Below are positions 11,026-43,698 of a stretch of DNA of 46,428 nt, piece after piece; within the stretch, counting starts at the first letter, position 1; every line of letters begins with the position of its first letter. Source of the stretch: an uncultured Clostridia bacterium (GTDB lineage: Bacteria; Bacillota; Clostridia; TANB77; CAG-508); assembly GCA_947581895.1 (NCBI GenBank), contig CANPWE010000008.1, forward strand, positions 1-46,428, given 5' to 3'. Made by a program: the position numbers and the translations under genes. The notes under the pieces are model-generated. The model searched no databases. It saw only the letters and a program-made list of their open reading frames with translations, and was not told the DNA's origin.

Positions 11026-11063
11026 TTTATAAACCAACAACTCATTCCCCCTCCTATAGAGTA

Positions 11064-11336
11064 GCCCAAAAACCCTAGATAATAATTGGTCTCTTGGGGG
11101 GAAAATTATATATTACTTTAAAAATGTGGCTTAAGTGGGGACCGGCTAGCTACAGAGAGTTATAATTCCCCAGACCACCACCACCCCAAAAACGTATACA
11201 CACTCCCTCACTGCCACACAGCAATCCGACCCTCACGCTCAGGAATTATTACTCTCTGTGCGCTGTTGGGAAACATTTTTAAAGTAATATATAATTTTCC
11301 CCCCAAGAGACCAATTATTATCTAGGGTTTTTGGGC
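11064..11336. repeat. Palindromic element copy C: perfect 64-bp inverted arms around a 145-nt G+C-richer centre
   Basis: Arm 11064-11127 (gcccaaaaaccctagataataattggtctcttggggggaaaattatatattactttaaaaatgt) is the exact reverse complement of 11273-11336; flanks agagtag / cggctacctgcaaaagc are shared with other copies. Confidence 0.9.
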
Positions 11337-11449
11337 GGCTACCTGCAAAAGCAAAAAATCCCCCAAATATCATTTTTTTAAATTTTCCTATTGATTTTTC
11401 CCCAAAAAAATGATACCATAATACACATAATATCAAGTGTACAAGAGAC

Positions 11450-34589: not shown

Positions 34590-34700
34590 TCGAATTTCCT
34601 CCATCTTTTTTAAAATTACCATAAACTTATTATAAACTTATTTCCATAAAAATTACAATACTTTTTTCAATTTTTTTTATATTTAACCATTACTAAAACT

Positions 34701-34890
34701 TGTAGAGTAGTCAAATTCAATAGTTATGTAATGCAGGAAAATATATTAATATGTAGTGGAGTGCGCAGTTTGGCGCCCCCACCTAACGTCTTCCACAAAA
34801 CCCAAACGCCAGCAAACGAACGGAATATTAATATATTTTCCTGCATTACATAACTATTGAATTTGACGGCTTACTGCAAAAGCATTAAAC
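34701..34890. repeat. Palindromic element copy B: perfect 42-bp inverted arms around a 72-nt G+C-richer centre
   Basis: 34711-34752 (tcaaattcaatagttatgtaatgcaggaaaatatattaatat) is the exact reverse complement of 34825-34866; flanks gtagagtag / cggcttactgcaaaagc. Confidence 0.9.
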
Positions 34891-34905
34891 AAAAATATTT
34901 AACAA

Positions 34906-43031: not shown

Positions 43032-43110
43032 TTAAATTGCTTTTCTATTATATCACAAATTAAAAAAAAAAAATAGCACAGAACTATAAAATTTCCATGC
43101 TAATTATCAC

Positions 43111-43182
43111 TATTCAACACTTCTCACATAACCAAACTTTGCAGAGTAGTCAAATTCAATAGTTATGTAATGCTTTTGCAGC
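43111..43182. repeat. Dispersed repeat partial copy D, overlapping the 3' end of the 43156-43698 gene
   Basis: tattcaacacttctcacataaccaaactttgcagagtagtcaaattcaatagttatgtaatgcttttgcag, near-identical to 46325-46396. Confidence 0.85.
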
Positions 43183-43698
43183 ATTAATTGCCTCTTTTAC
43201 AGCTTGTTCAGGTGTTGTAACTTCAATACATTTCAATCTTTTTCTTTCATCTATATATGTATTTGAAACCTTTTTAGCCCAACCTGAAAAATTTGAAACA
43301 GTTATTATAGGAATACCTGCTTGATATGCAATTGCCATTTCTGTTAAAGTACCTGAACCTCCTCCAATTGCAATAATTACATCACAAGATAAAACTAAAG
43401 TAAATTCTCTTCCACCACCAATGCCTAATCCACATGGAATAAGTACATCTGGTTTAAAATCCCCATAAATTTCTTTATCTTTTCCACCTGTTATTCCTAC
43501 TGTTAATCCTCCATTTTTATTAGCTTCTATTGCCGCATTTGTTGATAATGAGCTATATTCTTTTTCAGCTCCATATACTAAAATATTATTACTATTTGCA
43601 ATTAACTCTCCTAATTTTTTTGCAAAATTCAAAGCTTCTTCACTATAATCTAAATCAGCGGCAGAACCCATTATTCCTATCTGGATTTTTTTCATCAT
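43156..43698 (-). CDS. TIGR00725/LOG-like Rossmann-fold protein
   Basis: IGIMGSA, GGGREFTLVLSCDVIIAIGGGSGTLTEMAIAYQAGIPII. Confidence 0.8.
   Translation of the reverse strand: MMKKIQIGIMGSAADLDYSEEALNFAKKLGELIANSNNILVYGAEKEYSSLSTNAAIEANKNGGLTVGITGGKDKEIYGDFKPDVLIPCGLGIGGGREFTLVLSCDVIIAIGGGSGTLTEMAIAYQAGIPIITVSNFSGWAKKVSNTYIDERKRLKCIEVTTPEQAVKEAINAAKALHNY

Follow-up and report, generated by a model that had tools for sequence, protein, structure and literature searches.

A putative superfamily of small MITE-like elements with conserved cores and mirrored hairpin arms in a family of gut Clostridia

The window analysed here is the whole 46,428-nucleotide stretch of contig CANPWE010000008.1 (assembly GCA_947581895.1) from an uncultured Clostridia bacterium. 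Directly downstream of disA it carries an intergenic palindromic element, copy B, in surroundings of ~73% A+T. By-eye alignment with intact copies places this class A element at positions 34676 to 34892 of the plus strand, with approximate outer limits; all parts given below are on the same strand. The hairpin has a conserved base, the left foot GTAGAGTAG (34702-34710), and continues with the left arm (34710-34752), the centre (34753-34824), the right arm (34825-34867) and the right foot CGGCTTACTGCAAAAG (34867-34882), whose initial C is paired with the final G of GTAG. The original prediction, made from the sequence alone, described perfect inverted arms of 42 bp; the right arm is indeed the perfect complement of the left, and the length is 43 nt. 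The centre has the predicted 72 nt and is G+C-rich as described, with 57% G+C versus 26% in the flanks and 27% in the whole window; it is asymmetric and, like the rest of copy B, holds no ORF, as had been noted. Inner arms and centre together form the class A core (34736-34842), which is kept between species and is recognised by model R1 with 125 bits (E 7e-25). Both terminal repeats of copy B are degenerate, and no target duplication is recognisable there.

Parts of copy B recur in the window. The arm sequence TCAAATTCAATAGTTATGTAA has five exact matches (35-55 minus, 34711 plus, 34846 minus, 43150 plus and 46365 plus) and none in 100 shuffles of the window. The left junction GTAGAGTAG is found at 34702 and 46356, with a variant GCAGAGTAG at 43141, and the right junction CGGCTTNCTGCAAAAG at positions 56 and 34867, confirming that the outer junctions recur. 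The arm matches at 43.15 kb, 46.36 kb and the window start had been taken as further copies of one element; they belong instead to two other core classes (C, C and B, respectively). These are three partial copies, all on the plus strand, which have their outer ends in common with copy B: a class B right end interrupted by the start of the contig (1-85), with a right terminal repeat ending in TTAAACAGTAAC; a class C left end truncated after CTTTTGCAG (43107-43181); and a class C left end cut by the contig end (46321-46428). The truncated class C end (43156-43181) provides the final codons and the stop of a minus-strand ORF (43156-43698), and ten bases past the class B right end there is a solo left-type terminal repeat, CACTATTTAACACTTTTTATAT (94-112). 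A complete class C copy, absent from the original prediction, lies on the plus strand at 11056-11352; it has a ATAGAGTAG foot, a CGG foot with the right junction, perfect arms of 64 nt (11064-11127 and 11273-11336) and a core at 11111-11289. This copy sits between co-directional plus-strand genes in the sense orientation, which is the minority orientation.

The original prediction would have been contradicted by a lack of further copies in the genome or by a match to a known family; neither was observed. In the host genome (G000; 1.67 Mb in 94 contigs) a 30-base left and a 36-base right pattern gave 69 left-end and 75 right-end matches, that is ~70 copies, and reversed control patterns gave 0. 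Numerous host contigs start or stop within element copies, indicating that some copies are incompletely assembled. Rfam searches with classes A, B and C at permissive thresholds returned only sub-threshold chance matches (miRNA and sRNA models), phage, plasmid and viral-contig collections had no match for the element parts searched, and no known IS or MITE was identified among these sources.

The elements measure ~180-290 bp, with extremes of 51 and 472 bp, and carry no gene. Alignment of their ends revealed that the palindrome is only the middle part of the element. Outside the hairpin lie TTACTATTTAACACTTTTCACATAACAAAATTTTGTAGAGTAG on the left and, read as reverse complement, GTTACTGTTTAATACTTTTGCAATAAGCCG on the right; the outermost 18 bases on the two sides repeat each other imperfectly in inverted orientation and begin with GTTAC. 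These terminal inverted repeats read GTTACTRTTTAAYACTTTT in the host, GTTACARTTCAGG in a sister species (G014) and GTTACARTTCACAG in 20 genera. The inner feet are GTAG on the left in 79 of 110 copies and CGG on the right in 71 of 110. This asymmetric foot in most copies, together with a strong orientation bias (see below), agrees with the suggestion that the junctions could give the fold an orientation. Behind the common ends the host genome has at least three core classes: class A with the 72-nt centre seen in copy B, class B with a longer apical hairpin and the GCGCAGTTTGGC and GCCAGYAA motifs of class A, and class C with the core AAAATGYGGCTTAAGTGGGGACCGGCTAGCTACAGAGAGTTATAATTCC...GGAATTATTACTCTCTGTGCGCTGTTGGGAARCATTTT. 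In a sister genus (G151), three loci (L393, L394 and L395) represent two more hairpin families of 258-264 bp that share the GTTACAATTCACAG ends and have unrelated cores.

Of 14 complete copies in G014, 11 have exact 8-bp target duplications on either side. The corresponding figures are 9 of 18 in another genus, G225 (15 of 18 allowing one mismatch), 3 of 17 in the host (8 of 17) and 9 of 31 in other genera (14 of 31), while shuffled or mismatched partners gave 0-1.5% overall and 0-0.3% for G014 and G225; a systematic count over the same copies found no extension of the duplications to 9 bp. G014 has ~20 near-identical copies with other ends, GTTACARTTCAGGTGCC, that keep the class A core, and G225 has more than 100 terminal-repeat matches, mostly in pairs 181 bp apart. 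About 50 near-identical 181-bp copies in G225 (L418-L467) have AGTAGC / GCGGAT feet and yet another core. Hairpin-less elements of 51-72 bp also exist, some with exact duplications, and a 59-bp hairpin-less version in G225 (L453) has its duplication intact. The proposed non-autonomous mobile element is thus upheld by dispersed copies, terminal inverted repeats and the exact duplications in the sister species.

We consider it likely, with a probability of roughly 0.78, that copy B belongs to a non-autonomous MITE-like transposon with ~70 copies in this genome, the arms of which are rewritten by template switching and the folded core of which is under selection. The elements as a whole are best read as a previously undescribed superfamily of small MITE-like transposons. 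We propose that the ends are recognised by a transposase acting in trans, which makes 8-bp staggered insertions in intergenic, AT-rich DNA with a bias tied to the replication fork. Prokaryotic MITEs such as QMITE2 of Coxiella, the Correia elements and RUP are likewise short, AT-rich, intergenic and gene-free, with a stem-loop body, terminal inverted repeats and duplications of 7-9 bp (PMC10969869). The present elements agree with MITEs in ends, duplications and size; no partner enzyme was found in the assemblies searched. They differ from MITEs in that one kind of ends encloses several distinct asymmetric cores across many genera of one family, in that the arms change in mirror image, and in that the parent transposon was not found here; the review cited mentions no clostridial case. 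Core conservation across genera is a further point against a plain MITE, which gives no reason for it. Searches for an autonomous parent, both as terminal-repeat pairs 0.5-4 kb apart in the loci studied and with whole-genome patterns in G000, G014, G151, G218, G040, G237, G292 and G225, recovered short elements only, and MAGs often lose multicopy elements. A MITE mobilised by IS1595, for which 8-bp duplications would fit, was ruled out, as IS1595-type transposases are absent from all 16 genomes of the host's genus. No gene beyond ordinary orthologues recurs beside the copies, which sit singly among housekeeping genes; an integron attC site, which would belong to an array of tandem cassettes beside an integrase, was ruled out on these grounds.

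The arms vary widely among copies and match within each copy. Class A arms have a mean of 41 nt and are perfect in 51 of 84 cases; class C arms average 53 nt, and their 908 columns contain 10 mismatches. Flanking sequence was used to find loci that carry an element in two or three species, and the arms there were compared. Twelve orthologous comparisons gave ~63 mirrored substitutions versus 11 one-arm changes, in addition to mirrored indels. Local alignment and trimming lead to an under-count of one-arm changes near the outer ends, and loci shared by three species do not give independent comparisons. L320/L307, whose flanks are 97-98% identical, and L179/L257 each have two differences, both mirrored; at L259/L276 all changes, five substitutions and one indel, are mirrored; and L291 differs from L292/L293 by a mirrored 9-bp indel. 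Judged from these alignments, the arms change in mirror image, apparently through one arm being copied onto the other. Template switching can make and keep perfect stems, as described for RNA genes (PMC8794818) and yeast (PMC8604942). At L345, L384 and L385 the palindrome passes through the terminal repeats into flanking host DNA, which is inverted and duplicated, as expected if template switching acts at a hairpin (PMC8794818, PMC8604942). Selection for RNA pairing would leave more G-U than A-C mismatches in the arms; there are 18 G-U and 20 A-C, and wobble is not favoured. The mirrored changes and the lack of a G-U preference together favour template switching at the DNA level over selection on RNA, and the latter was dropped as the explanation for arm pairing. 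The idea that the arms copy the target site was also rejected, because recent G014 copies have identical arms at different targets.

After insertion, the hairpin would let DNA polymerase switch template during replication so that one arm serves as the template for rewriting the other; both arms would then drift jointly and remain perfect, and at some sites the copying would overrun the element into host DNA. In known template-switch inverted repeats (PMC8794818, PMC8604942) and in the quasipalindrome mutations of E. coli (PMC7202029) one arm similarly templates the other and multi-base changes are mirrored. The present case differs in its setting: the process is inferred here for a family of dispersed mobile elements in bacteria, at many orthologous loci, and the arms (40-90 bp) are separated by spacers of 70-150 bp. 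In G011 (L162-L165 and L228-L286) nearly all class A copies have one extra base at a fixed place in the right arm, its identity being A, G, C or T, which counts against free arm-to-arm copying because such copying should erase that base.

The cores are kept across species though the arms differ. Frequent arm copying should erase an asymmetric, unpaired core unless it is selected, and we propose that the core is spared from rewriting since its folded strand is under selection. A rather unlikely alternative is that the elements are a structured ncRNA family, spread by transposition and retained for an RNA function, with arms held complementary by compensatory selection on the transcript. The strong conservation of the core over species and genera would suit such a family, as would the inner stems of distant class C relatives, which have changed on both sides (CAGAGAG/CTCTCTG, CAGTCTG/CAGACTG, CATACTG/CAGTATG and GAAACTG/CAGTTTC), and the folding of both element strands, far better than shuffles. 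The class C core helix CCRRC/GYYGG, read on the element strand, has 148 Watson-Crick pairs, 54 G-U and 0 A-C, although a large part of the 54 G-U cells go back to a single inherited state and not to independent events; because G-U occurs and A-C does not, the helix suggests that the element strand is the folded one. Against the ncRNA explanation stand the balanced arm mismatches, the near absence of single-sided intermediates at loci with 97-98% identity, the mirrored 9-bp indel, the mainly antisense position of the elements relative to neighbouring genes, the inherited share of the G-U cells and the empty Rfam search. Of the structured ncRNA family named in the original prediction, what survives is the conserved structured core; arms without a G-U excess and the missing Rfam match speak against the rest. 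More speculatively, the asymmetric core may be the unit that a new system, for mobility or regulation, recognises: one folded strand, either single-stranded DNA at the fork or RNA, would be bound by a putative enzyme or RNP, and the self-correcting arms would be an adaptation that holds the fold perfect while the sequence drifts; we regard this as unlikely.

Copies are located within an ORF in only 2 of 112 cases. Between co-directional genes, 53 are antisense and 12 sense. Relative to the replication direction deduced from regional GC skew, 99 of 115 copies share one orientation, and between divergent or convergent genes the bias is still 23 of 26, which carries weight because transcription cannot set the sign there. 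In distant genera the ratio is 14:3. Older copies reach 27 of 27 (G013), and the recent bursts give 13:3 in G014 and 18:8 in G225, the latter with polarity assigned post hoc. Orientation of recent insertions was dropped as proof of an insertion bias, given the 18:8 of G225, and the weaker bias in recent bursts suggests that selection after insertion may also contribute. Fork-linked transposon orientation is known: in Tn7-TnsE, IS608 and transposons with beta-clamp binding (PMC5371812) orientation likewise follows fork direction, whereas here the bias is strong in older copies and weaker in the latest G225 burst.

These observations bear on the possibility, improbable in our judgement, that the element is recognised in the form of a folded single DNA strand, as are IS200/IS605, REP/RAYT and integron attC sites, with the GTAG-footed hairpin and core as the substrate and the terminal repeats secondary. 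The orientation along replication and the kept asymmetry of the core would fit it. The extra base at a fixed position in G011 resembles the extrahelical bases of attC sites. GTAG-tagged REPs and REPINs (PMC3733652, PMC3116915) are also dispersed extragenic palindromes of high copy number with an unpaired GTAG at one foot, comparable to the frequent GTAG foot and opposite CGG of the present copies. REPs measure 20-40 bp, so the present hairpins of ~158-275 bp are several times longer, and the present elements have terminal repeats and 8-bp target duplications; REP membership was rejected on size and target duplication, though the GTAG foot is common to both. The exact 8-bp duplications at GTTAC ends are the mark of staggered double-strand insertion, and they also rule out an IS200/IS605-derived element, which requires that no target site be duplicated. 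Moreover, the strand that appears to fold is not the lagging-strand template, opposite to IS608, the recent identical G225 insertions are weakly biased, and no HUH transposase, the RAYT (Y1) type included, was detected when 1.39 Mb of loci were scanned with loose motifs. An immobile, terminator-like palindrome duplicated by chance or misassembly, for which the position downstream of disA, the A+T-rich surroundings and the many contigs ending within copies might speak, is refuted by the ~70 copies, the target duplications, the same classes in independent assemblies and the orthologous sites in several species.

BOX, ERIC and Rickettsia palindromic elements are hairpin repeats of 100-200 bp. A conserved core within freely changing mirrored arms is not known for any of them. 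They resemble the present elements as dispersed hairpin repeats (RPE, BOX: PMC10969869) and differ from them in sequence and host group.

Class A was found in the host's genus. The class C core model detects relatives across 9 genera, in 24 genomes out of 290 from the order; every one belongs to the host's family. Of the 195 genomes and 39 sampled genera of that family, 57 and 20, respectively, contain the end motif GTTACARTTCACAG (control, ~1 match). The same element classes were recovered from independent assemblies of other species. One copy (L287) is on a contig labelled Cyanobacteria UBA3803; its flanks are orthologous to gut-Clostridia loci (81-84% identity), so a cyanobacterial host was dropped and the contig is probably misbinned, judging from these flanks.

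We conclude that the superfamily is new as a family and that its unusual feature is the combination of conserved cores and mirrored arms. The Rfam, phage and plasmid searches had no match for it, and it runs through a family of gut Clostridia, with dozens of copies in some sister genomes. Its loci form a large natural set in bacteria at which the age of double mirrored changes can be gauged from the flanking DNA. Direct counting there can address an old question, whether compensatory stem changes come singly, base by base, or through template switching. A conserved core within freely drifting, self-mirrored arms also implies a putative partner molecule that can be fished for. Many contig ends of this assembly fall in copies.

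In G014, L205 is a chimera with one end from each of two terminal-repeat types, a junction in the core and a single 8-bp duplication. One intergenic site is occupied in different species by elements of classes A, A and C (L002, L226 and L313, respectively), which suggests insertion hotspots or class replacement.
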